A stretch of 64,000 bases of DNA, from positions 16,765,434 to 16,829,433 of the forward strand of contig OY987227.1 of assembly GCA_963920705.1 (NCBI GenBank), in the 5' to 3' direction. Below are positions 16,495 to 50,559 of the stretch, piece by piece. Position 1 is the stretch's first letter. The number at the start of each line of letters is the position of its first letter. The translations under genes and the position numbers were made by a program. Source of the DNA: Odiellus spinosus (lineage: Eukaryota > Arthropoda > Arachnida > Opiliones > Phalangiidae). The notes under the pieces are model-generated. The model saw nothing but the letters and a program-made list of their open reading frames with translations. It ran no database searches and was not told the DNA's origin.

Positions 16495-19400
16495 ATGGCA
16501 AAATCCTATGGGATTTTGTTCCTATACCTGACTTTCGTTGCTTTAACTTCATGCCAGACTACACGTGAGTTTATATAATCTGACCTAATTGGGGGAGTAT
16601 CTATGGCTACTCGGTGATATTGCTAACTCGGACGTCTATTCGCGGACGATTTAACCCATTCTTAAATTGTTTGAATTTATCCATACATGGATTATTTTAA
16701 TATGTTATTAGTAGCTATTTTGACATATTCAGAGAGGCAAGTTTGACCTATTTTTGTATGAATTATTTTAAACTATTCAGAGTGGTAATTTATTGGTAGG
16801 GGTAATTCTATTTGTAATGGTAATTTTAAATTTTGTATATATAATTTCATCTCTGTAATTCGCGAGTGTCGAGGGGTCAAATACTTGTCAGGTTTGGAGA
16901 TATGGAGATTTCAATGTTAATTTCCAAAAAAATGAAAAGGTCATGTTAGGAATTTTAAAGAAGTTTCTATTATATTCCTTAATTAGTTGCAAATTTTAAT
17001 ATATATTTAGCTAATTAAGGGTCATTTTAATAAATTTAATGATAAATTCGACCTAATCGACGTGAGAATCATCCAAATTTTACTACAAATTAAAACTTAA
17101 AATTTTATTTTAAATCTTAAACTCTTTATCAGCCTCTTACCCCAGTTTCGAGGATTTATATTTCGCCACAGAAGCTGAAATTACCAGCATTCAAGATGAA
17201 GTACGTATATACTTATAGGATATATCATTTGTGCAATTTATTTAGTAACTAGCATTACGGTACATTATTAAAATGTCTAAATAATGACTTTAATATTTAG
17301 TTACATACAGTGTGATTATAATAATATATCATTCTTGACGTTCTCGCAGACCAACATTAGCCACACGAATGTATTCCACGAATACCACGATGTTAAAGGA
17401 CAACGGGGAAGAGTCCATTCACCGGAGAGTCGTCAAGTTTTCTTTTATTTCCAGAAGCTGAGCCAAGTGGTGTTTGTTACGAGTAGGTCATTTCCAAATT
17501 AAGATGAATCAAAACTTTATTTCAATAATCCATTTTAATATTTGCACAGGTGATAAGCGATGCTATGGTTTTAAAATAAACGAAACTGACATTAATAACC
17601 TCGAAACTCTATGGGGCTGGTGGGACAAAGATGACAAACTTATTGGACCCGCCGCTATCCTCAAAAGATACAAACCAGTATGTGATAATTATAATTTCCC
17701 TTCTTTTTTTTAAGAGACAACCTATTCATGGGTAAAACATCTATATGGAAAAAATCTGTCTTGTAAAACATCTCTATGGGAAAATATTGTTTTGTAAAAT
17801 ATCTCGAATGAGTATAATTCCTATGGGAAAATTCATTATGAATTTTCATATGACCCACATGGAAAAATGGGTGTATTGCCTAACAGATTTTTCCTAAAAA
17901 AACTAACAAAGTTTATCTATTCGTTAAATTCGCGGTAATCGCGAATTTCAATAGAAATTGTGGTTTTAGGAAAATGTTCCTAGGGTCACCACTATTAGAA
18001 AATACGCAAGAATCTTCTAATATGGGAAAACATGAAAAATTCCCCTTTGGGTAAAACCAATTTTTAAGAATATCGCCATCTAGAAATCCATTAAAAGGAG
18101 GATCTTCTCTGCATAAATTCATTATTAGTATCACCTTTGGTATAACCGCATAAGTTAATAAAATTTTATTGATATTCATTCAGACGTACGAAAAGAACGA
18201 AGTTGTACGTCGCATTTCGTGCAATAAATTCGTCGCCACAGATGGGAATATTTCTTTAGCTTTCTATATGGCTGGTAGGTTTGTCGTTTATAAAAGCTTA
18301 TCAATAAAGAGTATTTTAAGTTCAAATATTTTACTCCCTAGATCAAAGTTGGCTCGATTCGAACGGTATCAAAAACCCTTTTCCCGTAAGAGTAACCTTT
18401 AATGGTACCAGAAAGGTCAAAGGTATAGACCAACTGACAGTTGGACAGGTGGATTTCATGGCGTTTCGCTTGATTAAAGCATTCGAGTTTGAAAATATCG
18501 TAAAGGCAAGTACTGATAAATAAGAACTTTCAATTAGAAGGTTTTTTTTTTTTTGGTTTTTTTAACGTTTCAAAATTACCAGATCCCTCATGGCATTGGT
18601 TGTCAAGCAAATAGTACTCACAAAGGCATTATGACGCATCCTGGCAAAGTCTTTCCCAAACTCTCAAACGACATCTCTTACATCATGGAGACATTCAATA
18701 TCGAGACGGATACCCCAAACCGAGCCGACACTTTCGTCAACTTAGTAAAGGTAAGTCTTAACCATATTTTGTAGCTGCTCTTACGAAGAATTCCATTATT
18801 TCAACAGGTATGGTTCCATGCCGCGAGTCATTATGTCCGACTGGACGGATATGACGCAGATTTTGTCCGGTACAGCGAAATACAGGATTATAACACTGGT
18901 AAATTAATTAAAATTTAACAATTAAATTGTTAATGAACGAGTGTGGAAGAGAGCCGCGCGATATGACCTCATCACTATTCAACGATAGACCCAAAGGCGT
19001 GGTAGAAGGGTTCAAACTCGTCTTATAAGCATTTAATATTCCTGGTGACAAGCGTTGAGCAAGAGATCATGTGACAATATCGCTTGGTTGTCTTCCACCC
19101 TCTAGACGTTTACTAAAGCTCCGTTCACACTAAATTCTTGAAACCGAACACCAATATGGGTATGGGTGCGTAAGGTGGCGAATTTGTTTGAAAATTTCAA
19201 TTTAAGGAATTACATGGCATTTGGGATCTTTTTCGTACAGGGGTTAATTATCGCGTCTATGCAAACGACACCTGTTTCCTATCGGCTATTGAAAACAAGA
19301 CACCCGAAAGCCACGAGAATGGTTTTATGGGAAAAATGAAAAACGCCAACGAACTTTTAAACATGGATGCGGATTACTACTTTTTGGGAATGGAACTATA

Positions 19401-22400
19401 CCGCAGCATCTACTGCGAAGTCTGGGAGGCTATCATCCCCAACAAAACCGTAGGGGGAACCTTCTACTCCAACGTTCTTTCCACGTATTACATATCGGCC
19501 GTGAGTTAATTACTTTTTAATAAAAGTTTAAGTTTTTAACAATATCATTCCACGATCTAGTCTGCGGTAGTAGAGCTCAGTGAAATAGACCCCAATGTCC
19601 GAGTACCTGTGGCTTTGATCATATCGGCCTTCAAAGCTGACATTGGAGGAGAGGTATGAAGATAATTAGGCCTAAATTGTCCTAACGAAACAAATACTAA
19701 AGCCTTTTTTTTAACCAATTTTTTCAGCCTGATGTCCGAGCCTTGTACAACTTTTTCAATTTCGACGAGACTAAGTCTCATCAGTTCTTGCGCGAAGTTG
19801 ATTTGTCAAAGTGTTTTGAAGAAGAGTCGCAGAAGAACTATTTCATCGTTCGTTTCCAGGGAAATTCCGACGCCCAAATAAAACAAGTCAAGGATCACAA
19901 AGCGTCTTTCGAAGTCGAGGCCCTTTTGGGACTCGCTGTCGCTGCTCAAGCCTCGCTGGTCAGATTTCCAGTACTTGAAGTACGATGATAACTTCTAGAT
20001 ATTTATCAATTTCAAACCAAACACTAAATTTAATCATTTAATTGATTAGGTTCATGTTCAAAATAAAGAAATTGTCCTATTTGGACTTATTCTAAACCGA
20101 CCACCTGCGTTAGGTAAGGTTTTTAATATGTTACATATACTTGTTTTAAATGGGATTTGCCAACGACTATTTTATTTTCTACGAGATTTTGCGTCGTGTA
20201 TGAATCCGCCCCAGCTGGTTACCTTAATTGTTTAAAAACCATAGTGTACCTTATCTTTTAAAATACTTTATCATCGTGTTCTGCGTGATTAAACATACGC
20301 GTACGTGTAACTCCGGTTTTTCTTAAGGGGGCTTTATTATGTACGACGAGCAAGGCTTCACTCCAACAGTCGACATGGACCAAGTGGCGAACGTTGATAA
20401 CCCAGAGCAATGCGCCGATTTCTGTTTACGCCATGATAAATATACTTGCAGGTAGATGACGCGTCAATCGATACGCTAGTAGATGTACTTGGTATTTAAT
20501 TTAAAGTCGTCAATTGCAGGATTTTCAGCCTTTGCAACCACCCTTCCACTTGCAAGGATATGCAGACTTGCAAATACCAGTGTTTCTTGGGGAAACAAGA
20601 CATTGACAGCAAATTCGACACTCCACTGCCGGGATCTTTCAATTGCCAACTCTTCGCTCGTGCGTATTTCAAACAATATTTTCGGTTTGAATCTTAGAAT
20701 GAAATTATACATCCATAGAATAATCGGATTTATAGTGTTAATTTATACCCTTCCAAGCTTGTAACAGTACCACGAACAAACGCTGTTATATTCCTATAGT
20801 ATTAGGTCATATCATAACTAACGAGGACAATTAATTGTGTTGAATCCTAGGACATATCTTATTTATGGTGAACAATTGTTGGGAATACAAGGACATATCT
20901 TCACTATGGTGAAAAATTGTGGGGAAGACAAGGTTATATCTTCAATATGGCGGACAATTAATTGTGATGAATATTATTGGACGTATCTTAATTATGATGG
21001 GCAATTACAATTCTGGTTATGTTAGATTTGGTATTGGGATAGACGTAAAGAATTTTCGGAGAAGAGGTACGGATTTTATCGTACGTCTTTTCATTCCACG
21101 TAGGTGCTGTGGCAGAAGAGGCCATAGCGGAACTGGACCTCGTTGAATCTCTGAAAGCCTTAAACAAAAGCATCAATGAAAAACGTCTTAAGATTAATCT
21201 AAGTGAGGACAACATGGTTAGTAAATAAATTTATTTAAAATTATAAATCGTTCTTTCATATTCATAAGTTCTTTCATAAGTGAACATAGACATCTAGTTA
21301 TTCTAATTATATTTTAATAATTAATTAATAAATACTTGATTAACTTCGCGCAGTCTTTCGACTACACCGCTAGTGTACTTCAAACTGGCTTGAAACCATT
21401 TAACGGTAAATTAAATATTTTCAATTTAATTTTACTCGTAGTTCTTGATAAGTTGCGTTTTAATCCGCGTTCAGATTTCAACCACGGTCTTCTGTACGAA
21501 ACATCGTTCTCCGGATTCCAACTGAAGAACTCGGCTGGTTCATTCGCTACTCAGGAAATTTACGAGAAAATTGGAACACCGGAACTTTGCTACGATCGTT
21601 GCGTAAAAGATTCCCGACTTTCTTGCGCTAGTTTTTCGTACTGTCCCAACACTGGCCTGTGCCGTTTGAGTTCCCTCTATTTGACGGTGGACGTCACCGA
21701 TAGCATTAAACACATTGAACCAGCCACGGCTTGTCGAGTCTACCGAAGTAAGATATTCACTCTTTGGTTTTCACTTAAGCTTGTATAGTAATTGATAATT
21801 GCTGACTTTCTTTGAAATACGACTTCTTTCAGAATAATTATATTTTTATTAATTAATTTAGAAAGGGACTTTGACTTCTTCGAGAAGACGCCAGGAAAAG
21901 TCGCCGTGGTTGCAGGAAAGAAAGTATTAGAGAACGTGGTTGATACTGAATCCTGCGCAGTTTGGTGCAAGAGTGACAAGGAAGTCAATTGCAAAAGTTA
22001 CGACTTCTGTTCCAACACTAAAAATTGCGTTCTTCACGATGTTCACCATATCGACGGGGGCTTAATGAAACCAGACCTGAGTGACTTTTGCAATCATTAC
22101 CATCGTAAGTATCAGTTCATTATTTTACACTGTTAACTGAAAATCGCTGGTTAAAAAAAGAGTAATTTTACTGGTTTTCTTCCTGGTACAAAAATAACTA
22201 CGTTTTACGGATTTTAGTGAAAGTTAATTTCATAAGTGTCAAATTTAAGATAGCGAAATAAAATCTACTTCTTCTGCATCAAGATACCCCCAAACGCGGG
22301 ATAACCGCAATTTTCTATGTACGATCTGATGTTTTTAACTTCTGTCCGAGTGTCACCGAGAAGATTAATTTTGCTGAAATTTTTTTATCAAACGCATCTG

Positions 22401-25400
22401 ACTTTGGGTTGGTTTGGTTCTTAGTTAAGTACAGTACCGAATACACTTTGTCCCCGGGATCTCAAATCGTAGACGACAAACAGGCCACCGTTATTCGTTC
22501 TATAAGTTTCGAAGATTGCGCAAAGAGTTGCTCCGATTCCGAAAAATGCCGTTCTATAAACTTTTGTCCTGGAAGCGTAGAAGAACCGAATATCTGCGCT
22601 CTGAATACGATCGCCATTTACGATACTAACGCAACAACCATGGTCTCGGATGTCTGCCAACATTATTCAAGTATAATACATAAACTATTTTCATTAAATT
22701 TGTCCGACCAATTCCTTACTATAAAGTAACTCTTAATTCCTTAGGTAGAATGATTCAAGCTGATACTAACCCTCTTTTCGTCAAAATTCGAGATTTGGTC
22801 ACCAATGGTTATCAAGCTACGATTGAAGTCACGACGAAAAATTATAATTTTGGTGTGAGTTAATTTTCTTATAGGAGAAATCTAAAAAATATATACGTTT
22901 TTGGTTAGTAATATATTAAACAAGATAGCAAAGCTCATAATAGAACCCAAACCCAGAGAGCCCATCACTACTAGCCGCTATAAGCCTCGTGCCAAGCCTC
23001 TTTCTGAGGTCCCCTAAAAATCGTATAATTTATTGGAATTGTCATTTAAGAAGAAATTACTGGGCTGCATTCTCTTTTAGTATATCCCTAAACCTAATCC
23101 CGTCGTCATTCGCCCAATTTTTTGTTATTTTATTGTGAGACTGTAGAATTTTTCGTCTTTTTCCAGCTTATTTCGTTCTTTTATGAATTTTTCTAATGAC
23201 CTATTTTGTAATTTTCCTTATTTTTAAAGTTGTTGGTAATTTTTGCGAAACTAGCTAGACCTTTGAATTTTTCCAGATTTGACTTCACCCTACTCGTTTT
23301 TTCCAAATAAATTTTTTGGGCATTTTTTGTTTTTAAATTTTGTGAGACTAGACCGTTTCGTGCTTTTCCAGATTAGTTTTAATTAAAGTTGTAGGTTATT
23401 TTTGTGAGACTAGACATTTTTTCCATTTAGACTCACCTTATTCGTCTTTTTCCAGATTAGGTTTTTTTAGAAGCTAAGCTTAATTTTGAATTGTAAATTT
23501 TCACTAGTGAATTTGGTCTATTTCAACGATAAGACTTCGTTCTCCCTTTAACCAAAAAGGTAATTTTAAAAGATGACGGCTGTTATTATTTCAACAGAAA
23601 GAGACGAAGAGCTACGTTGCCAACGAATATCACGATTTGAAACGTCAACGCGGCAGAGTTGACCGCCAAAATATTGGCCCAGGGACCCGAGCCTCCTGGT
23701 TTTACTTCACGGAAACGAAACAAGTTGCTAACATAAGCGGTAATTTTTTATTTGTTATTTTAAAAAAAATATTCTTAGTACGTAGTAAAGGTTTAAGTAT
23801 TTCTTTTTATAGATTCCAGCTGCAAAGTGGACTCCTTCGAAGACCCTAAGTTTTACGACGAAACTATGTTCTGGAGAGATATAGCCATCGATGACTTCAT
23901 CGCCGGTCCATCCGGTGTACTTTATCGCCCAACATTCAGCACACCTCAATTCACAGGCAACAATACCTCTGTACGGGGAGTCCCTTGCAATCAATTTTTG
24001 GCAGTTGACGCGATTGACCACAATGTGAACATAGCTTACCACGTCCCAAGTAAGTAAATTTATATGAGATTTTCCCTTGGCGTTGAATCAGTTTGCGGAG
24101 AAAGTATCCGCTGGCATCGGGCTAAAATACTACAAAATATTTAGTTTAAACTCCCAAATATTTATTCATGGTAATCTTATTTTTGCGCGCCTTTAAGTAT
24201 CTTGGAAAACCTCCGATGACAAGCCATTTCCATATCCTATTCGCGTTGAAGCTTATGGGAGAGACAATAATAATCAAGCTGTCAATGTCCAAGTGGATAT
24301 TACCACCTTTATTCCCAGCATAAGGGAATTCGACGAATTTCAGGTGCGTTTGAGAAGGGGTATTTTTTTATTCATGTGTTCAGGAAATAACCATTAAATT
24401 TCGAAGGTTTCATAGGTTATCTACTTATTTGGCCTTTTTTCCATTGGTATCTACCCTTACTTAATAACAAATATCGCGGAAAATACTTAAAAATATTTTT
24501 TCCATTTTGGAAGTCTTCTGTCTGTTTGATTTTTGAAATCACTGACAATTGAAATTATAAGAAATGAAATAAGCAGACATCGTTAACAAATTTAAGTGAC
24601 ATGATTTCCAAGGGTATCTTTTCCTTTATAAGCGCATCTTTGAGGATACTCATAGTGCAAGGTCCTGATTTTAATTCATGAAACTTATTTTTCCAAACTT
24701 CAGATTTCGGGGAATGTATAAGGCAGTTATTTTTTTAAAAAGTTAAGAATTATGGCCCATGCGAAAGTTAATATTTTTGGGACATAATCACCTAAAAGTG
24801 AACATGAATTGGTTTTTATTTTCTTCAGGTCCCAGTCGGTATTGGTTGCGTTGGTTTAAAAACCACTGGTGGTCGACAATTCCCACCAGTTGAGGATCAA
24901 TTTTCATTCACTTCCGAAGTTTATAATATATTCAAGTCTTCAGAAAAAATCAAGAGCCACGTACTATTATATAAAGTAAGTCGCAGCTTTGCCCGGTTCC
25001 AATTTGAAATCCCTACAAATTAACCGTTTGTAGATATGGTTCGACGCCATGAACAAAGTACTTAAGATTGACGGTGTAGACGAGAAATTCCAGCCATTCA
25101 AGTCCGTGGCCGATTTTAACACTGGTGTCCAATACATGGAAACCGAATATAACAGTTGCGAAATCAAAGGAATTAAGAACTCTCCTGGTCAAGGACCCGA
25201 TGGAGAAGTCAGGGCCATGAAAAACGGGTCGACCTTTTTAGGATTCGACGGCGATTATTATTACATTGGAAAGGTAGGAACCTTTCCCCTGGAACTCCAC
25301 ACATAAAATTTGCATTGAGCATTATTAAGTTTAGAGCCTCTGCACTAGTACAAAATCTAACCGAGGTTAATTTGAAACAAGTACAAAAATCCTTTAAGGA

Positions 25401-28400
25401 CAAGTATAAGTACAAAAGTCCATGAAAAACGAATACAAGGGACCTTTAAATACAAGTTCAATTAAGAGTACATTAAGTAGAAGAACAAGATTATGTTAGA
25501 AACAAGTACAAGCGTATGTTAGAGAGAAGTAGAAGAATACGTTAGAAACGTGTTCATTAGGAACAATTTCAGGAGTCCATGAAGAATCACGGAAGTGTAC
25601 AACATGTATTAGTATGGACATATCGATGAAGTACTTCTTTTTTTAGGGTCTGGTTCGCAGCGTTTATTGCGATATCTGGGAAACGGTGAAGAACGACGTA
25701 TACATCTATGATTCTATCTATCAACGTGTGGTGCAGACTGTTTACTTGCAATCGGTGAGAAAATTTATTAAATAATCAACATTGATAAAGTTAATTAATC
25801 TGGCGCGCTTCGCTTGGATGAAGTTTTAAAGCATTTTGCATTGGTACAGCGCCTTTTATATATGCGTATTATTGCCAAAGTGTAGTTTGTAGAATTTGTT
25901 ACGAATATAAGCATGATTTGAGAGTGGTTAATTTTTGATACGTTCTAAAAAAATAAATTATTTCTTAATTCAGCCGCAAATCATGGGTGTAGCCGATGAC
26001 GACTTTAACATTCAAGTACCGGTTAAAGTCGAACTTAGGCTACAAAGCAAGGATACCACACCAGTAAGCGCGTACGAAAAGATTGAAGAATAAATTTAAC
26101 GTAAATTTATAACCCTAAATGATAAATTTTCAAGGTGAGCCTAATAGAGAACAACATGTTTAATTTCGACGAAGCCGAGGGTCGTCTCTTCTACAACGAC
26201 ATCAACATTGAACGTTGCTTTCCGCGCGAGGAGGATAAAGCTAACTTTATGGTATATTTTCCGGCTCAAGGTACCACAGTTGACGAAAGAAAATCCAACA
26301 GACAACGTATAGAAGTCGATGCCAGATTGTCCATTGCCCAGGCCGCCGAGGTCTCCCTCTTAAGGATTTCTTCACTCATGGTAAAATAATTCAGACGCAG
26401 TTGATTTAAAAATCGTACTAATTAGTTCAATCGTTTAGGTTAATATCGACAAAAACAACGTCGTCGTCTTAGGTACCCTCTTGGGTAAACCTCCACCATT
26501 AGGTGAGTTTAATCTTTTCGGTGAAATCGCGAGTAAAATCAAAGTAAATGGAATGTAAAATCATCTACATATTCGCGTTCATCATTAATTGTACTCTGAT
26601 TTACTTTTACAGCTGGATTTTACTTATTTTCGGCTAAAGAACAACCGTTAAGCGGCGAAATTGAAGATAAAACTGGCGTTAAAGAGCCGGGTGATTGCGC
26701 CTCTGCATGCGTGAGCATAGAAGTCTGCAAGTAAGTTCTATATTCACGATGATGCGTGGTTTCGTTCGCGCGTGCTTAACCTATACGACTTTAAAGGGGA
26801 TTTACTTACTGTCCCGGTGGTTCCGGAACACCCATTAAGTGTTTCTTGACTACATTGGACATTGGTGATGATCCTTCCGATTGGGGTGAGATCAAACCCG
26901 GTGAAAAAAGAGATTGTAGTTTATATTTCAGTAAGTATTAACTTTGAAAAACCAATGACAGTTAATATCAATCTTCGAGTACATTTCTGGTTATGTTTCT
27001 AAAAGGATCCGCTTTGGGTACTAAGATGTCGGAGCCCGATCTTAAACAAGCCATCAGTAACTTAGATAGTAACGTCAAGAAGGGTACGGTGAAGTTGGGA
27101 ATTGTTATAACGGGAAAGGAACCCGTGACTCTGGTCGCGAACAGAACCGAAGAACGATTAAATCCATTCAACTGTAAGTTTGTACAATTACTTTATACAG
27201 CATGGACAGAATATTCAATTGTATTCGTGGTAAAGTTGAAGACACAGACCTCTTCGATACTGTCTTCACTCAAAGAAGACTGGACGATGGCTCGGAAACC
27301 GTTTTGGAAAAAGGGATGGCCCTTTCGGCCTCGGAATGTAATCAACTCTGTTTGGAAGAGGAAAGTATGTTCTGCTCGAGTTTCTCCTACTGCAAACACG
27401 ACGGTAATTGTAGGCTTAGCTCGCAATACATCGACGCCGAATCGTCTACTAGTCAAGAAGATGTCGAGAAAGGAACGGCAACTGCTTGTAACGTTTATAG
27501 AAGTAAGTTTTGTGGATTTTAGGGCTGAATACAGGCTAGATTGTCCATGGTTGGTTACCTCACAGGAGGTTCTATCAAGTTTTTCGACAAAAAACAAGGA
27601 CTGATTCCTAACAACAATGGAGATAAGTTCGTGTCTACAACCGTGTCAGCCGATCAATGCGCGTTTCTTTGCCGCCAAGAGAAATCATTCCCTTGCAAAG
27701 GATTCGAATATTGCGACAACTCGAATGGTTGCGTCCTTTACAAAACGCACTCTTTGGACGTTCCCTTGAATCCAGGAAATCCTATTTGTAGTCACTACTC
27801 TCGTAAGTTTTTACTGTCAAGGGCCTATAAATGTATCCGCTTGAATCACTTAATCCATCGGAGAATGGTTATGACCAGGAGTTTATAAGTAACCGCCTTT
27901 GAGGGGAAGTATGAAACGTAGTGAAAAAGGCCTAACAACAAAGTTTCGTTGTAAAAAGATACCGCTTTAGTTTCGTAAAAATATTTCAACCATTTTTGAG
28001 CGCTAAAACGTTTGCTCCTTTCTCTTCCTGAGCTATTTTCTGCGTTGTTATTCTAAAACTGTGACACGTAATAGTTAGGCCTTTTTAACTTCCGATTCAA
28101 AGTTAAAACTAAAAAACAGACAAAACACTGTAGTACAGCGAGTTATGAAGTCAACCGAAAGGGTAATGTTTTAGATAACCAGGTGGTAATCTTGTAGGGT
28201 AAATAATATGAACCAGTTTCTTAACTTCCTATTGTTGCTCGATTGCCATATCATCTTTGTATCCGTTCCAGTTCAAATACAATGTTCTAAGTGTATATTC
28301 TTCAATATTAACCCTCTTTAGTCAAATACGGTCTTGAATTTTCTGACATGGGTAAATTCGAATTGGTTGGTCCGAACCAGCCAATCAAAACTACCGTTGA

Positions 28401-28917
28401 GAGTTTTGAACAGTGCAGTCGAATGTGTTACGATTTGGGATCCGATTGTTTGTCCTTCAATTATTGTCCGGGAGATTCAATATTGACCTCAAGTTGCTCA
28501 CTGTTGGCGGCAGATTCGGACACCCCAGGTTACGAATTGAATGCTTCAGAAAAGTGTTCCCATTATTTCAGTAAGTAAAAATATTTAGGCCCACTAAATT
28601 AGGGTTAGATGTTAATTACGTGTTTCAATGTCTTAAGGGCGAACCAAAGCGCAAGTGAAACGACCAAAGGTCATAATTATAAACGACGACAGAGTCTCAG
28701 GAGGTACGTTTAAAACTTCGTGTCAAATGCGTTTTTAAATCTTTGAAGTGTTTAATTTTGATTGCCTCATATTTCAGGACATTTCGCTGGTGTCACCTTT
28801 GGTGTTTTGATCTTTGGTATGTTCCTAGGAGCTGCGGGTTTTATATTACTATCCCTTTACAAGAGCAGGCATCAAAACGCGGACGGAACAGCTGTAAGAT
28901 ACGTTAAAGGACCTTAA
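16495..28917 (+). CDS. 37-exon type I membrane protein: two LolA-like/PAN super-repeats
   Basis: Exons joined by hand give one open frame of about 1,891 residues: 16495-16564, 17133-17200, 17350-17482, 17550-17677, 18184-18274, 18342-18499, 18583-18750, 18808-18898, 19241-19500, 19561-19653, 19728-19979, 20050-20113, 20328-20451, 20520-20659, 21104-21216, 21354-21405, 21475-21747, 21862-22104, 22425-22670, 22745-22854, 23598-23739, 23813-24049, 24198-24343, 24829-24975, 25034-25273, 25647-25754, 25974-26063, 26135-26380, 26439-26502, 26613-26730, 26797-26930, 27006-27173, 27236-27502, 27566-27802, 28322-28570, 28638-28703, 28778-28917. Residues 1-22 are a signal peptide (hydrophobic ILFLYLTFVAL, then TSCQ). 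Residues ~25-923 and ~924-1824 are two copies of one super-unit, followed by a membrane helix (~1847-1870) and a short basic tail. It is probably a surface receptor or adhesion protein of unknown ligand; many N-x-S/T sites fit an extracellular location. The frame is intact. The end may differ, because exon 37 has an internal donor at 28,894. I give no gene name. Confidence 0.9.
17350..20113 (+). other. First LolA-like module (exons 3-12)
   Basis: Residues ~47-526. Landmarks in order: EYHDVKGQRGRV, RCYGF, ISCNKFVATD, PFPVRVTFNG, IPHGIGC, VWFHA, NDTCFLSA, IYCEVWEAI, NFFNFDE, KCFEEE and LFGLILNRPP. The second module has counterparts of all of these, including six cysteines at equivalent places. 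The EY-D...RGR strand followed by a [I/V]xCN[K/Q]F-type motif and a GIGC motif recalls, from memory, the extracellular metazoan proteins classed as LolA-like; I could not search to confirm. Such folds are lipid-binding in bacterial LolA, but no function can be assigned here. Exon 6 has two overlapping candidate donors (GT at 18,500, GC at 18,506), both keeping frame. Confidence 0.6.
20328..22670 (+). other. First set of four PAN/Apple-like domains (exons 13-19)
   Basis: Four cysteine domains: exons 13-14 (residues ~526-614), 17 (~669-760), 18 (~760-841) and 19 (~841-923). Each follows C-x3-C-x(5-7)-C-x5-C, then another C, then a closing C-x2-[YF] motif such as CRVYR, CNHYH or CQHYS. The core phrases CASFSYC and CKSYDFC correspond to the C..F centre of PAN/Apple domains, which bind proteins or carbohydrates outside the cell. 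Six cysteines would form three disulfides. Exons 17, 18 and 19 each hold one domain and are bounded by phase-1 introns, the usual signature of shuffled or duplicated extracellular modules. Exons 15-16 are a low-cysteine linker. Confidence 0.7.
20821..21010. repeat. Degenerate tandem repeat in intron 14
   Basis: Four imperfect copies of a unit of about 46 bp containing GGACATATCTT, then TATGGTG and ACAATTATTG-like words. It lies wholly inside the intron between 20,659 and 21,104 and does not overlap an exon. It creates short spurious reading frames. Confidence 0.7.
22855..23597 (+). other. Intron 20 with degenerate repeats carrying decoy acceptors
   Basis: From about 23,130 to 23,470 a unit near 100 bp recurs three or four times: TTTGTGAGACTAGAC followed by a T-rich stretch ending TTTTTCCAG. 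Each unit therefore carries a good-looking 3' splice site. The acceptor supported by frame and by homology to exon 3 is TTTCAACAG at 23,589-23,597. The intron joins the two halves of the duplicated gene. Confidence 0.6.
23598..26502 (+). other. Second LolA-like module (exons 21-29)
   Basis: Residues ~960-1433. It aligns along its whole length with the first module: EYHDLKRQRGRV for EYHDVKGQRGRV, RGVPCNQFLAVD for RRISCNKFVATD, YPIRVEAYG for FPVRVTFNG, VPVGIGC for IPHGIGC, YCDIWE for YCEVWE, MFNFDE for FFNFDE, LGTLLGKPPPL for FGLILNRPPAL. Identity is low (roughly a quarter to a third by eye), so the duplication is old. Intron positions are mostly shared, but this copy lacks the introns after exons 4 and 8 of the first copy and has its own after TYR-rich YYYIGK (25,274). 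Same uncertain LolA-like assignment as the first module. Confidence 0.6.
26613..28570 (+). other. Second set of four PAN/Apple-like domains (exons 30-35)
   Basis: Domains are in exons 30-31, 33, 34 and 35 (residues ~1433-1517, 1573-1662, 1662-1741, 1741-1824), in the same order as the first set. Cores are CKGFTYC, CSSFSYC, CKGFEYC and CLSFNYC; closing motifs are CSLYF, CNVYR, CSHYS and CSHYF. Exon 32 fuses the equivalents of exons 15 and 16, so one intron is missing here. The exon 33 acceptor is AAG at 27,233-27,235: the more obvious CAG at 27,198-27,200 would put the reading in the wrong frame. Introns 32 and 33 are only 62-63 bp. Confidence 0.7.
28638..28917 (+). other. Juxtamembrane, transmembrane and tail exons 36-37
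   Basis: Exon 36 encodes a basic stalk (RRTKAQVKRPKV). Exon 37 encodes a hydrophobic span rich in G, F, L and I (from GVTFGVLIFGMFLGAAG), then LLSLYKSRHQ and a stop at 28,915-28,917. The positive charges after the helix predict an outside-in type I orientation. The sequence GCT|GTAAGA at 28,891-28,899 is a strong in-frame donor, so the stop may lie in an intron of a longer isoform. No AATAAA signal follows the stop within 700 bp, which favours continuation. Confidence 0.75.
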
Positions 28918-29140
28918 GTCAATTTATTTTAAGTAAAACCCTTAACGGGGTTCTATTTTGAAAGTTAAAAACCAATTTTCACTAATTTTGTAAAATAGAC
29001 CATATTGAATTATTTATATCTCACATTTTGAATATGAGTTATTTTCAATTTCATGTTTTCGCCAGTGTGAAATATAGGTTACAGTTTTCACCAGGTTGAT
29101 TCAGTATTTATCCCTGTAGATCCAGGCGTTTAATCCCTTT

Positions 29141-29489
29141 GGCCGTGTCAATTTAAGAAACATTCCAGCTACCTAGTGTGACGTCACACTACCTAACTTC
29201 TTTTCCCCACTCGGTCTAAAATTCTCTCTACAGTCAGTTATTGCGATGACGTCATTTTTTCTACACACGTTGCTCGAAAATTTTAGTTAATTTGAGTCGG
29301 GCCGGTAACCAGTATTACGTGCAGTATCGTTTACGGGTCGAATTTGTTTCATTTTCTTAGATCGCGAACGGCTACAATCTGACTATTTTGGATGAATTTA
29401 GGAACAATAATATCAACGGTAAGCATTTAACGAAAGTTTATATGATATTTTTATTTAAGGAAGTTTATTATTTGATAAACGTCAGCGTC
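29141..29489 (+). repeat. Tandem duplication unit A (empty-site copy)
   Basis: This ~349-bp unit is repeated directly downstream (29,490 to about 31,368, interrupted by a transposon). Shared landmarks in order: GGCCGTGT, the TGACGTCACACTACCTA palindrome region, GATGACGTCAT, GAGTCGGGCCGG, GTGCAGTATCGTTTACGGGT, TTTTCTTAG and a mini-exon. At 29,204-29,213 (TTCCCCACTC) it preserves the sequence as it was before transposon insertion in unit B. Confidence 0.88.
29361..29418 (+). CDS. Candidate alternative tail exon A
   Basis: Bounded by TTTTCTTAG and GTAAGC, this 58-base exon reads IANGYNLTILDEFRNNNIN, entering in phase 0 and leaving in phase 1. Phase 0 is exactly what the in-frame donor at 28,894 in exon 37 would supply, giving a cytoplasmic tail that continues past the transmembrane helix. 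A diverged copy lies at 31,251-31,305 with an in-frame 3-base difference. I infer alternative, probably mutually exclusive, tail exons; there is no transcript evidence here. Confidence 0.6.
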
Positions 29490-29561
29490 GGCCGTGTTAA
29501 TTTGATAAACATTCGAGCTAGTGTGACTGACGTCACACTACCTATCTTCTCTTTCCCACAC

Positions 29562-31110
29562 CATAGCCTCCTCGATCACGCGCTTCGGCTGCGCTCGCGC
29601 TATAGAAGCCCCGGCAATCGCCCGAAAATCGCGAATAAATGAATTCTCGAGATTTACAAAACTCCCCCAAACTGATGCACGTCTCAAAGGGGGGAAACTG
29701 ACCAAATTTGAAGGGTTTTGCCCTTTTCAGGTCTTTAATGATTTTTAAAAGCCACAATTAAAATATATGTTTTGCAAATTAGTTTATTTTATCTCCCTAA
29801 CCAGGTTTCATAATTTTAGGGTGATTAGTTTTTAAGTAAAAAATTAAATATCAACGTAAGATTGTAGCGTGTGCAAAGCTTTACCGCGTGCTTCAATCAT
29901 TAACTCGGGTAAGTTTTGAAATTTTGGGAGAGAAGTTTTCCTGCCATTTTCCAAATGCCATACATAGGTATTTAACTATAATGATAATAGATTAGTGTTA
30001 ATCTACTCTCATTATAGTTAAATAACTATGTATGGCGTTTTGAAAACGGCAAAAAAACTTCTCTCCCAAAATTTCACAACTTACACGCTACCACCTTACA
30101 TTGATAATTAATTTTTAATTTAAATTTATCACCCTAAAATTACGAAATCTGGTTAGGGAAATATTTCGCCTTACAACCCTAGATTAGATTAAATAACTAG
30201 GTTTGGAAAAAATGTTGTTCGGGGCAATCTTATATTGGTATAGTTTTATAAATATATTTTTTACAACATATTGATACTACTACTATCTGATCATAGGTTA
30301 AGATGGTGGTGAATGTTTTAAATTTAAAGAGAATCTCAAATTATTTGGGGACTCTCATTCCACAATGCTATTGTTTACGAAAATATTAAGGGATTTCTTA
30401 CAAGTTAGTGTACAAGAATGTGATGTACTACTAGTAAATAAATACCCATCATAGAGCTCTCAAAATTTTTAGACAACTGTATCCTACGAAAAGACAAGAG
30501 AAGACCGCCGTATTTAGATTAAGGCCTATTACCCGGCTTCAAAATTTAGTAATTTCTCTCTCTTATCAATTCTCACAATTGCAACCTTATTAATTTTAAC
30601 ACTTGTTTTTGAGTAAAATAGTATATTGTCATAGAATAAAAATCAAATCAGAGGGTGAAATTAGAATATAAGTTTATAAATAGCATCTACAGCGTGACTG
30701 CAGTGCCTGTGTTAATGGATCAAGGCTTTAGATTTAAAAAGAACCGCGCGCAATAGGTGAAAACCGCAAAAAGCTCCGTCAGTAAAGAAAAATAATAGGT
30801 TCGCTAGTTTCAACAATTATTAACGCCAAATCTGTAATTCTCAAAGGCTTGGAATTAATTTGTAAATTATCAGTACATACTTAATTAGATGTGGTTAAAA
30901 AATCAGGAAGCTGGAGCGTAAATTTAAAACTTTAGACAAGAATTTGTTTCTCCCCTCGACTTTTCCCCCCTACATTTTAGTGCTTTTTCGCGCCGTCTTT
31001 TGGGGGAGTTTTAATTTCCCATTTATTCTCTCAAACACATGTTAATTTTTTTCTTTGCCGGGGCTTCTATAGCGCGAGCGCAGCCGAAGCGCGTGATCGA
31101 GGAGGCTATG
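29562..31110. mobile_element. 1,549-bp DNA transposon, 56-bp perfect TIRs, 7-bp TSD
   Basis: The left end CATAGCCTCCTCGATCACGC is the first part of a 56-bp inverted repeat that is perfect at the right end (31,055-31,110). The direct repeat CCCACAC flanks it at 29,555-29,561 and 31,111-31,117, and unit A of the surrounding duplication gives the pre-insertion sequence. The inverted similarity continues weakly inward (AATAAATG..., ACTCCCCCAAA, GGGGGGAAA). The interior has no open frame of useful size, so the copy is non-autonomous. A fold-back element is nested inside. A 7-bp duplication does not settle the superfamily. Identical ends imply a fairly recent insertion. Confidence 0.93.
29795..30158. 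mobile_element. Nested fold-back (palindromic) element
   Basis: Two arms of about 165-200 bp are inverted around a centre near 29,993. CCCTAACCAGGTTTCATAAT at the left pairs with ATTACGAAATCTGGTTAGGG at the right, and GGGAGAGAAGTTTT with AAACTTCTCTCCC. The left arm carries about 37 extra bases. The single-stranded form could fold into one long hairpin. It lies inside the 1,549-bp transposon, either as a later insertion or as part of that element's own structure. Confidence 0.85.
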
Positions 31111-31250
31111 CCCACACGGTCGTCAAATTGATGACGTCATTTGGTATACATACGTTGCGCGAAAATTTCTTTTAATTTGAGTGAGTCGGGCCGGCAATCA
31201 GTATAGACGTGCAGTATCGTTTACGGGTCGAATTTTTTTAATTTTCTTAG

Positions 31251-31305
31251 ATCGTGAACAAAGATGCGATTGTTTTGGATGAATTTAGGAACAATAATAT
31301 CAACG
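31251..31305 (+). CDS. Candidate alternative tail exon B
   Basis: Bounded by TTTTCTTAG and GTAAGC, this 55-base exon reads IVNKDAIVLDEFRNNNIN in phase 0 and exits in phase 1. The last ten residues (LDEFRNNNIN) and their bases are identical to exon A, while the first part differs and is one codon shorter. Flanking non-exonic sequence has diverged more, which suggests that selection has kept the reading frame. A possible terminal exon at 31,488-31,504 would follow. Confidence 0.55.
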
Positions 31306-31487
31306 GTAAGCAATTTATCGTAAGTTTTTATCATCTTTTATTTAAAGAAGTTTATTATTAAGCATCAGCTCGACCACGCGTTCGTTAGGCTTAACGAGCT
31401 ACTTTAAAAACGGGCGAGTTAGGCCTTTGCTCAATGGTGTTTCGGGTTGCTGAAGTTAAACGGGTTAATGACAATACTTAATTACAG

Positions 31488-31504
31488 AGCATATTACGCG
31501 GTAA
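31488..31504 (+). CDS. Possible terminal mini-exon (EHITR stop)
   Basis: The acceptor AATTACAG at 31,480-31,487 is followed by AGCATATTACGCGGTAA. Joined in phase 1 after either tail exon, it encodes E-H-I-T-R and stops. The nearest AATAAA lies at 32,191-32,196. The exon is tiny and the polypyrimidine tract weak, so this is a suggestion only; a different exon may be used. Confidence 0.25.
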
Positions 31505-32600
31505 TTTATAATTAATGACGTACTCCAATTTATTTTTAAATCTTAGTCATATTTATCGACGTTCGTGATATATATCACAAACATTAGGTTTAGATTTAGC
31601 GGGCGTTTAGAAAAAAGGGGAGGAGTAGAAATTCGGTTTTTACCCTACATTACTGAACACCCACATGGTTGTTTATCGACATGAGGATAGGCGAATTTTC
31701 AACAACCTTCACGAATCCTGTAATTAATATACTATGGGAAACAATTTATACGAAATTAAACGCCACGAGCCTCTCAACAATGTCTCTGTATAAGTAATCG
31801 ACTTACTAGATTTCCATGTCTGGTATTAAAATTTAATTACGAGAAAGGACGCTTGTTTTTATACGAATAGGAATTTTTTTTTGGGCGGTGGCTTAACGAA
31901 TAATGGGAATTAAAAGTCTGGAGCCAAAGTTAATTACCTGTTCGACTTCCTTCATTTAAAATACATATGGTATATCGCCATTTATGTGGATCATTTAGTT
32001 CATCCTTATTTACTCCCAAGATCATGCAGTTTTTAATTACAAGCAATATACTGTATTGTAATAATTAAGTTGGTTAATTATGGAAACTTAGCTAGTGGTA
32101 GGGTAGATTTGATCTGATATACTTTACGGATATTTAATCGATTAAAAATAACTGGTAACCATTCTAGTATCCCTTTAAACTGACAGTTTAAATAAAATAC
32201 AATTAGAGGTACAATAAGGCGATCTAGAAATGGGTCAAATAATTATAATAATATGCCTAAGGGTTCAAGGTCACCGTGTGTTTGTGTTAATCTCTTTGAA
32301 ATTAGTTTACACCTATATTTTAAATATAATGATACGAAACATTCGAATATTTAGGTTAACGTGTAATTAATGTAAACACTTAAATTTTTAAAAAATAACC
32401 AAGTTAATTGGGCTCAATTGAAATCAATATTTAATTATTCAGCTATTTCAAAACGAAATATTTTAACTCTCGGCTTCTTTGATCATCGGTTTCTACGTTT
32501 TTATGTAAACTAATGTTCCCTCAAAATTTAATCCGCTTTCCTTATTTTCAACGTTTCGTGTCCTAGCTACTGGTCAAGTCTATATATAGACCATACAGTG
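31505..32600. other. Intergenic or 3' UTR stretch
   Basis: No exon is supported. The AATAAA at 32,191-32,196 is a candidate polyadenylation signal for the long isoform of the upstream gene. G+C content rises sharply from about 32,580 toward the next promoter. Confidence 0.4.
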
Positions 32601-33250
32601 GCGCGTAAACAATAGCGACGTTGGGGGTATATAACAAGAAAGGTGGAATTCTTTTTGTGTTTTTGTTTTGTGCCAAGTTGGCGCCCTCGGTTTTCCCCCG
32701 CTAAGCACCAAGTTTGGGGACCCCTCTAGTACCGTTTTCAATCCCCCGATAAAGGAAAAAAAAGTTCCCTTTTGGTTTTCATTTTCCCCTTAGCTTTTTT
32801 CCTCAAATCTGCCCAAAAGCGTAAAGGCGGTCGAAGGCACCGGCGTCTGTAGTAGTGTAGTAGTAGGGGTAGGACCGTTGTATACCTAGTAGCTAAAAAC
32901 GCAGGGGCGAATTACGGCATAATCTTGCGGGGGCGCTCCCTCTGTCTCTCGGCTATCCGCGTTCTTCCTTCCTTCCTTCCTTTTCTTTCTACGCGCCTCG
33001 GTTTTCGAGTAAAAACTGTCCAAAAACGACCCAGAGTTAGAACGTAGCAGACGACGATTGAGCCTCTCTCTGAGAAGCGGTTTTTGGCGCGCGCCCGGTT
33101 CGATATTTAAACCCGCGAAGGAAGAAGCCTCAGTGAAGCAGTGAAATCGCTATTGACTCGTGTCTCGCGCATCGCGGATCAAAATGCTGTTTTGACTTTA
33201 AAAGAGGGATCGACCGAGAATTTTGTGCATTATAACCTTTGACCCTGAAA
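32600..33250 (+). promoter_or_regulatory. GC-rich promoter with TATA and initiator
   Basis: A CpG-rich block, in strong contrast to the AT-rich surroundings, leads to TATTTAA at 33,104-33,110. CTCAGTG (initiator TCAGT at 33,130-33,134) follows, with the predicted +1 A at 33,132, 28 bp after the start of the TATA box, which is the canonical spacing. The 5' UTR would be about 119 bases to the ATG at 33,251. A second TATATAA lies at 32,628-32,634. A (CCTT)n run is at 32,964-32,984. Confidence 0.65.
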
Positions 33251-33338
33251 ATGGATAAAAAGGATTTGGGTTTTCGGCTTATTTTGCTGATTGTCTCATT
33301 GTTTCAAATCACCTGCGTCGTGCAACAACAAATTAGGG
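33251..33338 (+). CDS. First coding exon with signal peptide
   Basis: ATG opens MDKKDLGFRLILLIVSLFQ, continuing ITCVVQQQIR. A short charged n-region, an LILLIVSLF core and a likely cleavage before VQQQ or QQQ mark it as a signal peptide. It ends at a GTTTGT donor (33,339) in phase 1. This is a partial gene: no following exon can be recognised in the window. The product is secreted or membrane-bound and of unknown family. The first exon at 57,140 also ends in phase 1, so both could splice to the same downstream exon. Confidence 0.7.
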
Positions 33339-33849
33339 GTTTGTAGTTATTTGTTACCTTTTATATTGACGTTTTAAGGAACATGTGCGTTTCGGATGGA
33401 GCTTTTTCTCCGAGGGCGAGGGAGGAGGAGCGTCTTTTGTAAAGATGGAAGGCCTAACTCGCGGGAGAGGCCATATTATTTACCGTTTTATTGACCGTCT
33501 GGGTTTTAAAACGTGGTTTTTCGGGAGTTTACGCTCGGTTTGAGATGAAATTTAACGTTTTTACGTATGCTGTAATGTTAATAATAGAATTTGTACGTTA
33601 TGATATATAGAGTTTAAGCATAAAATGCAAAGAAATTGTACAGCGTGTAATCAGACGCAAAATTAGTTTCGCTTAGTTTTAAATCAGTGTTTTGGTTTAA
33701 GAGGGAAACGTCAATTAACTTATACCAAATGTGTAATATATTTTTTGTTTGTAAGACTTTAAGCGCTAGTATCCTCAAATAAGGATATGTCAGTAAATTT
33801 AGACGTATTTAAGACTTGTTTGAAAAAATTTCAAATTTCCTTGGATGGT

Positions 33850-33889
<40 letters not shown>

Positions 33890-36612
33890 GAGGTTGTAAC
33901 CAATTTAGTTAATTGTATTTCAAACTCAGAAACGTCATGATACCTTGTTTTATTGATTGGTCCACCATCAAGGTTGCCAGAGACCTGGAGAATTGACATA
34001 AACGATTATCTTAAGCCTTTGGCAATGGTCTTAGGTTGCCTTGATTTCGGGTGTTGCGAATCTTCAAGTCATATGATCCTATTTGATAATTAGATATATA
34101 CAATTATGTTACTCCTTACCAAACGGAAAATTAACTGTATACTGATAAAAATTAAGTTGTTAGGGAAATTTGTGATATTTCATGTTGCCAGAATTGTGAC
34201 AAATGTGAAATGTCACAATAAAATTAGTTTTGATATCTTGCAATATTTTTAGCCGAACCACTTGAAATAGTAAAGTGTCATGAATTGTGACCATGATTTT
34301 TTATAATGTTAGATCAAATTGTGACCAGGCTTTGGGGGGGGGGGGATAAAGGTATCAAAAAGCCCCCAAAAATTAAATTCTTGAATATTTCATTATGAAT
34401 ATCCTTAAATCATTTTAAATTTCCTTCAATATTACATTTTACACTTTATTTCTAGAGTTCAATTTTTTTATTGTCTATCAAAGATAGGTAGGTTTATGTA
34501 TAAGCTTCCAGATGGTCTCGAGGCAAAATTGTTAGCTGTTACCAAACTTAAAAGTGCAGAGGCGGACAACACTTAAAGATATCGGGCGTTGATAGTGAGA
34601 GTGGGAATACAGTTTACCTGGCAACCAGTTTTTTTCATAGGTGGGATGCGATCGCAGGATCTGTATATATGTAGAGAGGCCTTCGGGCTACACTACCTAA
34701 AATGGTCTGCTTTTTTTTGTGACCAATTTTGGATAGACATGCTTATATAGCTCGAAAAGGAGGCACATCATATTATTAAGCGGTTGCTTAATCCCTATTG
34801 AGCCGCGGTTAAAAATTGTGGCGTGATTTAGATTTTAAAAGAGTTACAGGAACGCGTATGTTTGATATGTTAAAATTGAAATAATTTTAAACATGTAGAC
34901 ATTAAACGGAAGGACTATGGGATTGATTCATGCCCCGCCTAAAATTGGATATCCGGTTTCTGACGTCATTTGAAACGATATGTGATTCGCATGACGTCAG
35001 AGGTATACAGCCATTCAACAAGCACTGAACTGCTAGTCCTTCATATTGTCTATCTTTTGAGACAATCTATAAGATGCTGCCTCAGCGTTTCTCCATTTTG
35101 TAAACCCCTCTCGAAAAGATTTCAGCCAAGAAATTTAAAATTGAACTAAAAAATGAATTCAAATAACAATTTGATAGGTTGTGTTGTTTTAATAAAAATA
35201 TATAAATATATTAATTTTAAAACAATATTAATTAGTAAATGAGGTACATAACCTAATTAGATTAGTAATTTAAATGAATAGCTACTCATTTATTAATTTA
35301 TATATATAAAAATTATAATAAGACTAATTATAAATAGTTGCAAAGAATGGTCCAAAACCTAGTATTTCTCTAGTTGCGTGTTTTTAATACTAAATATTTT
35401 TCTCAAATTTTTAAGTCAAGTTTCTTTCCTTTTTTTACCTAAATTTTTTACATTAATTGAACTAGCGAAAACGAGTTCGATAAACGCTTATCTTAGCTTA
35501 CGCTACTCAGAAGGTATAAGAAATTAACGACTAATAAAAAAGCGGGTGTCATTTTGTGGCTGAAATTCCTGTCTCCCCGGTGGCCCTGGGTGAAATTTTA
35601 AAGTTGGGAGAAAAAGAAAAAAAACTTAAAATGATGTCAAGCTGTATAATTTTGGTTCCTAATGGGTGAAATTTTGACAAATATGCCCCTTTCTCCTGGA
35701 AATGACTTTATCGTACCCTCTAATATTGAAACCACCTACGATTAAGAAAATTAACTCTCAAACCATATGTTAGATTAAAATTGACACTTTAAGCTCTTGT
35801 TTATTTAAATGAGGTATTTCTTTAATTATAAGTGTTGGCCGTGAATCAAATGAAAGCTTTTTTTTTTTTATTAACTTAGTCATAAAATACCAAATTTGGT
35901 TTGGGTGTTTATCTAGGAAGAGAAAACAAAAACCCTACGACTTTTTGTTCCATTTTATTTAATATTTAAAGAGATTGTTCTACCTTGGTATTTTTTTTTT
36001 TTTTTTTTTTACTTATTTTAGTAACAGTTATACTAGTAACATCTAAAATTAAGTTAAACCATATTACCAAGGGGTGAAGGAAGGTTATTATTCCCCGAAC
36101 GTGTTAGGTCCTCTTGACTTTTGTCAAAAATAAGAATTAAAGATCTTGCAATCGTCTGTGTTTATCAAACTACAGATTTTATAAGCAGCCGAATAATACC
36201 CATTATTGCTCTCAGATGGTTAAACCTAACTTCCTTTAACAGAAAATTATGTGGATTATATATAATTTATTATTAATGATTCGTATGACTTTCTCAAGTA
36301 CTACAGAAGCCACTCAAGTACTACAGAAGCCACATTATTTACATTAGTGCTCCCTCGTTAAGCCTAACTATCTCAGAATATAAAGGGATTAAATAGTTTC
36401 GATCTGAAACGATTTGAAAATCATTTCGTAATTTCATGGGGGACTGTATTTTTCAACCAAAATATGAGTAACTCAGGAGCTGTATCGAAATCGCGTAGAT
36501 AAAATGAGTAATACGCGATTTTTTTTTTTTTTTTTTTTTTTTTTCTGTAACCCCCGTCTCGTAAGCTTTCTGATTCGATAAAAGCCTTCAATATATATTT
36601 TTTTATTCCCCT
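33339..36612 (+). other. Presumed first intron, no exon seen
   Basis: AT-rich, with T33 at 33,852-33,884, G9 near 34,335, T20 at 35,991-36,010 and a 20-bp direct duplication at 36,293-36,333. Two TGACGTCA motifs in inverted arrangement lie near 34,961 and 34,992. No coding frame is supported. Confidence 0.45.
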
Positions 36613-36617
36613 AATTA

Positions 36618-36734
36618 GCGGTGACATATTTGCCCACAAGGGCTGTGATAAGTTAGAAATATTGTCGAAAATGGAGGAGAATTAGGTCCTATTTCTGACC
36701 TATCACAGCACTTCGGGGCAAATACGTCAGTGCC
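36618..36734. mobile_element. Short MITE with ~45-bp inverted ends
   Basis: Left GTGACATATTTGCCC...GCTGTGATAAGTTAGAAATA pairs with the right arm, whose reverse complement reads ACTGACGTATTTGCCCC...GCTGTGATAGGTCAGAAATA. The 5-bp direct repeat AATTA flanks it (36,613-36,617 and 36,735-36,739). It is 117 bp with no coding capacity. Because AATTA is common in AT-rich DNA, the target duplication is only suggestive. Confidence 0.7.
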
Positions 36735-36739
36735 AATTA

Positions 36740-39700: not shown

Positions 39701-40336
39701 TTGCCACACAGGGGGTAAACTCTTTCTGCTATATGTATCCTATTTTCTATTCCAACCAATTTCTCTCTTTTTCTAAGATAAAACTGCACTTGAACACAAA
39801 TATGACTAATTTGTAATTATTAGCCAAATCTGACCAGAACCGCTTTTGAACTATGATGTAGTTTTCGTGTAAAATATCACAAACTAACTCTTGTATTCCG
39901 CACCCACAATTTTTTCATGGTATGAGATTGTATATTTAGAAAATACGCAATTATTCGCTCCGGTATCTATATGACTTTGAAGCTTATTTCTTGTTTAATA
40001 TCTACCAATCATCTTTCATTTTGTATGCTGTCCTCGGCGGGAACCAATTAGTTCAGAATAAGAACAAATTATGAAACATCGATTTAACTTTTCACCCTAC
40101 CTTTTGTGATGGTAGAAAAAAAAACGACATCGGAGGGGCTTGTCCATATTTTAGATTTAATTATCTGGTAGAAATCCTGTTTGGTAATCTTCTTTTTTGC
40201 CTAATAAATAATAGGATACTAGAATTTGCGGTCAATTTAAAGTCTACGTGTAAACTTTTTTAAAAGTCATGGTTTTATTAGCGTAAATTTTTCGGCCTTT
40301 TTTTTTTCCGAACTAGTCTTTTCAAATTAAACTAAA
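36740..40336. other. Non-coding stretch with poly-T tracts
   Basis: Contains T13 at 36,883, T22 at 37,000 and T20 at 37,895. The last and the tract at 36,519 are preceded by ACGCGA, and the one at 37,000 by ACGCGGG. The open frames at 38,201-38,509 (minus) and 38,909-39,181 (plus) have no domain, signal or splice support. Confidence 0.45.
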
Positions 40337-40620
40337 GCCGCGTTCATACTAGACCTTGGAGTCGATTTAAACCGTTTCAAAACGTTTCGCTGGAGTCGTG
40401 TGAACCGTCTTTTCTGAAATCGATTTGATTCGATTTCTCGAAACTGCTTCGGGAATAGTTTCATATCGATTCGGTTTCAACAACCGGTAGATGAAGCTAC
40501 GATAAATCGATTTATAAAGATAATGCGTGAACACGTGACGCTTAAGTCGATTCCTTGCGATTTTAATATCGGTCCAATTTTACCATTACAAATCGATTAA
40601 GAAAATAGTCTAGCCGACGG
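40337..40620 (+). mobile_element. ~270-bp MITE family, copy 1
   Basis: Begins GCCGCGTTCATACTAGACCT and contains GTCGATTTAAACCGTTTCAA, TTTCGCTGGAGTCGTG, TCGAAACTGCTTCGGGAA, GATTCGGTTTCAACAACCGG, TAAATCGATTTATAAAGAT, GTGAACACGTGACGCTTAA and ATATCGGT. All have counterparts in copies at 41,333 and (inverted) 44,917. ATCGAT-type words recur throughout. Termini are degenerate, so the exact ends are approximate. Confidence 0.8.
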
Positions 40621-41332: not shown

Positions 41333-41600
41333 CTGCGTTCAGCTAGGCCTTGGAATCGATTTAAACTGTTACAAAATGTTTCGCTGCGAAATCGTGCGAA
41401 CAAGAAATCGTCTTTTCTTGAATCGATTACATTCGATTCCTCGAAACTGCTTAGGGAACCAATTTCATTCCGATTCGGTTTCAAAAACCGATAGACTAAG
41501 CACAATAAATCGATTTATAAAGATGTGTGAACACCTGACGCTTAATACGATTCCTGGCGATTTGAATATCGGTTTGATTTTTTTACCATATCAAATTGAT
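41333..41600 (+). mobile_element. ~270-bp MITE family, copy 2
   Basis: Same order of landmarks as copy 1, beginning CTGCGTTCAGCTAGGCCTTG and running to ATATCGGTTTGATT. The right terminus appears lost after about 41,600. It lies in the same orientation as copy 1, about 0.7 kb downstream of it. Confidence 0.8.
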
Positions 41601-44916: not shown

Positions 44917-45185
44917 AGCTACGGTCACACTAGCATTTCCTAATCGATTTGAATCGGTAAAATCAAACCGATATTCAAATCGCCAGGAATCGTTTTAAGA
45001 GTCATATGTTCACGCATTATCTTTATAAATCGATTTATTATAGATTCATTTTACGGTTGTTGAAATCGATCGGTATGAAACTGGTTCACGAAGCAGTTTC
45101 GAGACGGCTTCCTGTTCACACGACTCTAGCGAAATACGTTTTGAAACGGTCTAAATCGATTCCAAGGCCTATTACGAACGCAGCT
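44917..45185 (-). mobile_element. ~270-bp MITE family, copy 3 (inverted)
   Basis: The reverse complement of copies 1 and 2, and the most complete at both ends. The left end AGCTACGGTCACACTAGC and the reverse complement of the right end AGCTGCGTTCGTAATAGGCC, both leading into ...ATCGATTT, are imperfect terminal inverted repeats. This shows that the family is a non-autonomous DNA transposon. Flanks GAATAT and TATATT are too AT-rich to prove a target duplication. Confidence 0.82.
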
Positions 45186-50528: not shown

Positions 50529-50559
50529 TTAGGTTCCTAAAATATCTATATATATATAC

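Follow-up and report, generated by a model that had tools for sequence, protein, structure and literature searches.

The stretch of DNA analysed here, called the window throughout, comprises 64,000 nucleotides (C3:16765434-16829433) of contig OY987227.1 of the arachnid Odiellus spinosus and contains a gene for a membrane protein with PAN_1 domains (Table 1). The gene was modelled with a gene finder based on dynamic programming, which was trained on the 64-kb window itself and retrained over rounds. An earlier reading of the same DNA made from its letters alone, referred to below as the sequence-only reading, had counted 37 exons, and the independent gene model arrives at the same number. Pfam search of the 1903 amino acid protein yielded PAN_1 (PF00024) in seven stretches (E 3.1e-38) with a score of 129.9 bits at a cut-off of 21.4, which makes the protein a member of this family, and no other Pfam family rose above its cut-off. 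LolA-like domains, suspected in parts of the ectodomain, were dropped as unsupported by this search, and no paper listed in a literature search for them contained the term. The two halves of the protein, residues 1–949 and 950–1903, align at 26.9% identity over 974 columns (E 2.3e-114), and the ectodomain is therefore a tandem repeat. Seven PAN_1 stretches above the cut-off are what the protein has in common with PAN/apple-domain membrane proteins, from which it differs in the two tandem related ectodomain halves and in the non-PAN parts of these halves, which stay below every Pfam cut-off. The top hydrophobic span starts at residue 1866 (hydropathy of 2.30 over 19 residues) and a weaker span is found at 468. 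Judged by eye, the N-terminus resembles a signal peptide.

Table 1. Features of the window, in positions counted from its first base.
Feature	Position	Strand	Remarks
Minisatellite	3516-3938		31-bp unit, 14 copies
Minisatellite	5225-5945		28-bp unit, 26 copies
PAN_1 membrane-protein gene	16495..28917	+	37 exons, 1903 aa, one stop; dynamic-programming model
Exon 37	28778..28917	+	encodes the membrane span and a short tail (...KSRHQNADGTAVRYVKGP); carries its own stop
Candidate donor GTAAGA within exon 37, phase 0	28894..28899	+	5.5 bits; 6 of 36 modelled donors lower
Tandem unit 1	29141..29489	+	about 349 bp; from repeat comparison, alignment, and genome search
Candidate mini-exon A	29361..29418	+	58 nt, IANGYNLTILDEFRNNNIN and one base; acceptor 6.1 bits (21 of 36 lower)
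Tandem unit 2, 5' part	29490..29561	+	ends in target-site repeat CCCACAC (29555-29561)
Inverted-repeat element	29562..31110	.	1549 bp; perfect terminal inverted repeats of 56 bp; very young and in high copy number
Tandem unit 2, 3' part	31111..about 31360	+	begins with second CCCACAC (31111-31117)
Candidate mini-exon B	31251..31305	+	55 nt, IVNKDAIVLDEFRNNNIN and one base; acceptor 9.3 bits (34 of 36 lower)
Candidate shared last exon (top, weak)	34512..34576	+	DGLEAKLLAVTKLKSAEADNT, stop; first of 55 candidates
Minisatellite	50530-51391		42-bp unit, 20 copies

Elsewhere in the window a dispersed repeat, roughly 270 bp long, is present in three copies (40335-40604, 41335-41603, and 44936-45186), which are 78–82% identical and one of which is inverted. 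The 64-kb window gave nothing in Rfam at gathering score and nothing in a tRNA scan.

The stop codon within exon 37 suffices for an ordinary short tail. The exon stays in frame up to position 28893, where it reads GCT, and the proposal of the sequence-only reading that GCT|GTAAGA at 28,894 closes the exon in phase 0 is confirmed by the sequence. The donor had been placed 21 bases before the stop codon ends; this is in fact the distance to the start of that codon, whose end at 28917 is 24 nt away. Splice sites were scored with a matrix built from the 36 introns of our own model, in a leave-one-out manner for these introns, and on this partly circular scale all five questioned splice sites fall within the score range of the 36 modelled introns of the gene. 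The donor at 28893 is among the weaker ones, and sites of its grade are common, equally good donors occurring at 1.9–2.6 per kb of control sequence. The gene finder is indecisive on the tail because its preferred ending changed between rounds. In round one the gene ended at the plain stop and in later rounds at another tail, the scores after retraining being 747.0 for a tail at 29460-29642 and 741.2 for the plain stop, with several other tails between them.

A second PAN gene was located about 43–46 kb past the end of the window (C3:16869434-16879433 and adjoining; tblastn, E 1e-6). Its automatic model skipped the membrane-span exon and ran into exons of another gene. The exons that follow the PAN gene look like those of an alpha-2-macroglobulin-type gene. 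The membrane-span exon of the neighbour (C3:16875775-16875875), examined by eye, has the same entry phase and an own stop after YGYYRANRR; its acceptor is modest (4.2 bits) and its internal donors all have 3.8 bits or less. The last exon of the neighbouring PAN gene thus seems to be one that comprises the membrane span and carries a stop, and should this ending be right, exon 37 with its plain ending would represent the ordinary form of the family.

Downstream of exon 37 lie two candidate mini-exons, A and B, which had been described exactly by the sequence-only reading. They begin in phase 0 behind matching acceptors, both ending in TTTTCTTAG, finish in phase 1 at a GTAAGC donor (7.2 bits in both cases, 14 of the 36 modelled donors being lower), and encode the peptides that had been given for them. 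It is also true that their lengths are one codon apart and that the part they share, which is the 3' part, is base-identical. With 47 of 55 bases identical and one codon gap A and B are neighbouring homologous exons in form, and they have the same phases, the same types of splice sites, and the one-codon difference in length looked for in a mutually exclusive pair. Open phase-0 mini-exons of 20–150 nt and of the grade of A were found six times in 77 kb of control sequence, and those reaching the threshold of B not once in the same 77 kb. The codon score of the two is above that of 83–85% of open noncoding windows and below that of about 91% of coding windows; noncoding open windows score as high in 17.3% (A) and 15.5% (B) of cases, and coding windows as low in 8.4% and 9.5%. 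The splice anatomy of the mini-exons is suggestive, though by itself not compelling.

The mini-exons are contained in a segment which has been tandemly duplicated, a fact that had escaped the sequence-only reading. Copies of the 5' part of the unit are spaced 349 bp apart (29141 and 29490) and those of the remainder 1885–1890 bp apart, and the two spacings are reconciled by an insert at 29562-31110 which sits in copy two. A search of the 443-Mb genome (286 contigs) with 29211-29489 matched two places, both at this locus, absence of a match in this search being no proof of rarity, and with this result the mini-exon was ruled out as a dispersed repeat. A sample of 20 ten-kb stretches and one 2-kb stretch of the genome contained no mini-exon unit at E 1e-3 and one copy of one end of the inverted-repeat element.

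The insert is this inverted-repeat element, flanked on either side by the 7-bp target-site repeat CCCACAC. Genome search with the element gave 603 first-look candidates, 40 of which were scored, with 219 matches. Among these 40 of 603 candidates at least six rows span positions 1–1549 of the element, this copy included, and a copy on C7 matches the one studied here at every base (1549/1549, 100%). At eight inspected loci 7-bp target repeats were seen in all six full-length copies, two of which lie in the same flanking sequence and are not independent, and the other two loci were not clean. Terminal repeats, a target-site duplication, and several copies, the marks of an inverted-repeat DNA transposon, are thus all present. 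Compared with a non-autonomous inverted-repeat DNA transposon in the 3' region of a gene, the element is alike in its perfect 56-bp terminal inverted repeats, the 7-bp target repeats, its high copy number, and its near-identical copies; listed as a difference is that the stop-to-stop list of open reading frames holds none above 93 aa overlapping the element. An internal fold-back of about 374 bp (29790-30163) is a further feature of the element. A and B are 1.9 kb apart because the 1549 bp were inserted into copy two, and copy one serves as the empty-site counterpart of the insertion. With 84% identity over 234 columns the duplication is old, whereas the insertion is recent, and the order of events was therefore duplication, divergence, and insertion.

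The sequence-only reading had further maintained that the flanks of the mini-exons diverge around the shared part and had taken this as a sign of selection on the peptide. The comparison of the two copies does not bear this out. In the 5' flank 48 of 56 bases (86%) are identical at 29245-29300 and 55 of 60 (92%) at 29301-29360, the 3' flank has 47 of 53 (89%) at 29419-29472, and the exons themselves have 47 of 55 (85%) and a 3-nt gap. Because the flanking intron is as similar (86–92%) as the exon (85%), the argument for selection on the peptide fails. Within the exon the first 24 nt are the least alike of all sequence near the exon, with identity at 14 of 21 aligned bases and with the codon gap, and the last 34 nt are identical at 33 positions. 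The longest identical run, 39 nt, extends from the 3' part of the exon across the donor (P = 0.022 with shuffled columns). The identical part contains no synonymous change, so that constraint on the peptide is inseparable from constraint at the DNA or RNA level or from chance. In a neutral simulation (flank mismatch of 0.112, indels at 4 events per 169 sites, and indel lengths chosen by us) AG, GT, length class, and open frame were all kept in the second copy in 18.4% of 20000 runs, and the intactness of both copies may be regarded as a mild argument for function.

Candidate exons downstream of the phase-1 donors were scored against about 85 kb of controls, and none was clearly above background. 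The first-ranked of them (34512-34576), with a single place in the genome according to the genome search, is equalled by two candidates in these controls. Competition between RNA pairings of docking and selector sequences is a frequent, though not obligatory, mechanism for mutually exclusive exons. In a test covering one 49-nt intron block per copy no such pairing around A and B was better than in shuffles, the best pairings being -29.1 and -33.0 as compared to a mean best of -33.0 and -32.2 in the shuffles. With the 150 C-terminal amino acids as query, plasmids returned no match, while viral contigs and prokaryote genomes returned 17 and 66 pattern matches, respectively, none of which was confirmed as a relative. 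Exact patterns taken from the element, from the mini-exon, and from the intron block were absent from these collections (0 matches). As the collections are not of animals, these results are uninformative on conservation. A search of solved structures with E up to 1 allowed returned 10 matches, the best being to toxin repeat chains over query residues 102–147, which comprise the membrane span and the tail (E 2.6e-5). These were taken as composition matches and dropped as homologues.

The reading that is tentatively preferred, and which on the sequence evidence we hold to be just short of probable, is that at least one of the mini-exons is an alternative tail exon of a candidate exclusive pair. 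By default the gene would give a membrane protein whose inner tail is short and ends at the stop of exon 37. Read-through of 28893 would yield this tail, ...NADGTAVRYVKGP, and exon 37 would be a composite last exon. A single-locus segment of about 349 bp with a small candidate exon, phase 0 to 1, was duplicated in tandem and, much later, a young inverted-repeat element entered copy two and increased the exon spacing from roughly 340 bp to 1.9 kb. When the donor at 28893 is used, A or B would appear in place of the last seven residues; if both were used, B would be out of frame and the protein would end after ...INDREQRCDCFG. Division by three leaves a remainder of one for both lengths (58 and 55 nt), so that joint inclusion of A and B shifts the frame and leads to an early stop after ...NNNINDREQRCDCFG; a downstream frame common to both can be kept only if one or the other is chosen. 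Site scores, phases, and this frame break would allow for an alternative tail from one of the two duplicated exons. The sequence-only reading had predicted at least three tails, the short one and one from each mini-exon. The coordinates, the duplication, the insertion, the sequence of these events, and the logic of the frames are shown by the DNA; that the mini-exons are spliced at all, and where their transcripts end, is what we infer here. A far more specific form of this reading is unlikely, namely a working switch between two tails, A with a tyrosine and B without, which would exist beside the short tail, would have come about by lineage-specific exon capture and duplication, and would be in the course of being reshaped by an element of such youth that the species may contain both carriers and non-carriers. 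If true, such a switch would be a natural test of the influence of intron length or of a new poly(A) signal on exon choice.

Almost as likely as the preferred reading is that the mini-exons resemble exons by chance and belong to 3' flanking or untranslated sequence. The donor at 28893 would then be a decoy, the tail would end at 28917, and the likeness of A and B would be that of a noncoding duplication. Conservation of the flanking intron to the extent of the exon, the background rates of donors of the exon 37 grade and of A-grade mini-exons, the ambiguous codon score, the own stop in exon 37 with seemingly the same ending in the neighbouring PAN gene, and the failure to find a convincing downstream exon all point in this direction. 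Chance look-alikes are, however, less easily brought into line with the very strong acceptor at 31251, with the identical run over the 3' part of the exon and the donor, and with two copies which are both intact despite about 11% flank mismatch and indels (P about 0.18 in the neutral simulation).

It is very improbable that the exons are used in another way, either with A joined to B as a frame-shifted last exon or with read-through of the donor of A or B, which would then be a last exon of 93 aa (A) or 36 aa (B) from the acceptor. In favour of such use, 31251-31282, when taken in the shifted frame, ranks second among the last-exon candidates in 29440-37000 (score 11.2), both read-through frames are open beyond the donor, and the first AATAAA past the stop of the gene, preceded by weaker variants, is found at 29634 within the element. 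Against it, the GTAAGC donors and their surroundings have been kept in both copies and AATAAA is frequent in sequence so rich in A+T.

If at least one of the mini-exons is used as an alternative tail exon, as preferred here, the locus shows the first steps of gaining alternative tails: an optional exon would have been gained behind a stop and duplicated in tandem together with its intron, half of it would have diverged, and a transposon would have been inserted. The youth of the insertion, to which the 1549/1549 copy testifies, would permit a comparison of chromosomes with and without the element. If the exons are not used, the locus illustrates cleanly how a noncoding duplication can mimic rival exons with apparent conservation of a peptide.

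Duplicated exons at the 3' ends of genes have already been described (PMC9013439), as has the duplication of an intron together with its exon (PMC6071210). In the latter paper the introns flanking mutually exclusive exons are described as resembling each other more than other introns, and the mutual resemblance of the introns flanking A and B is of this kind. Compared with tandem mutually exclusive exons as presented in these two papers (PMC9013439, PMC6071210), A and B are different in that their splicing is predicted and that competing RNA pairing was not found, in that a very young transposon lies between them, and in that the preceding exon 37 has a stop, which makes both copies optional. 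They are alike in being homologous neighbours with the same phases and a difference of one codon, in the duplication of the intron along with the exon, and in the break of the frame upon joint inclusion. Since duplications of this type are described in the two papers (PMC9013439, PMC6071210), the candidate pair, if used, would be a further case of an exon type already described.
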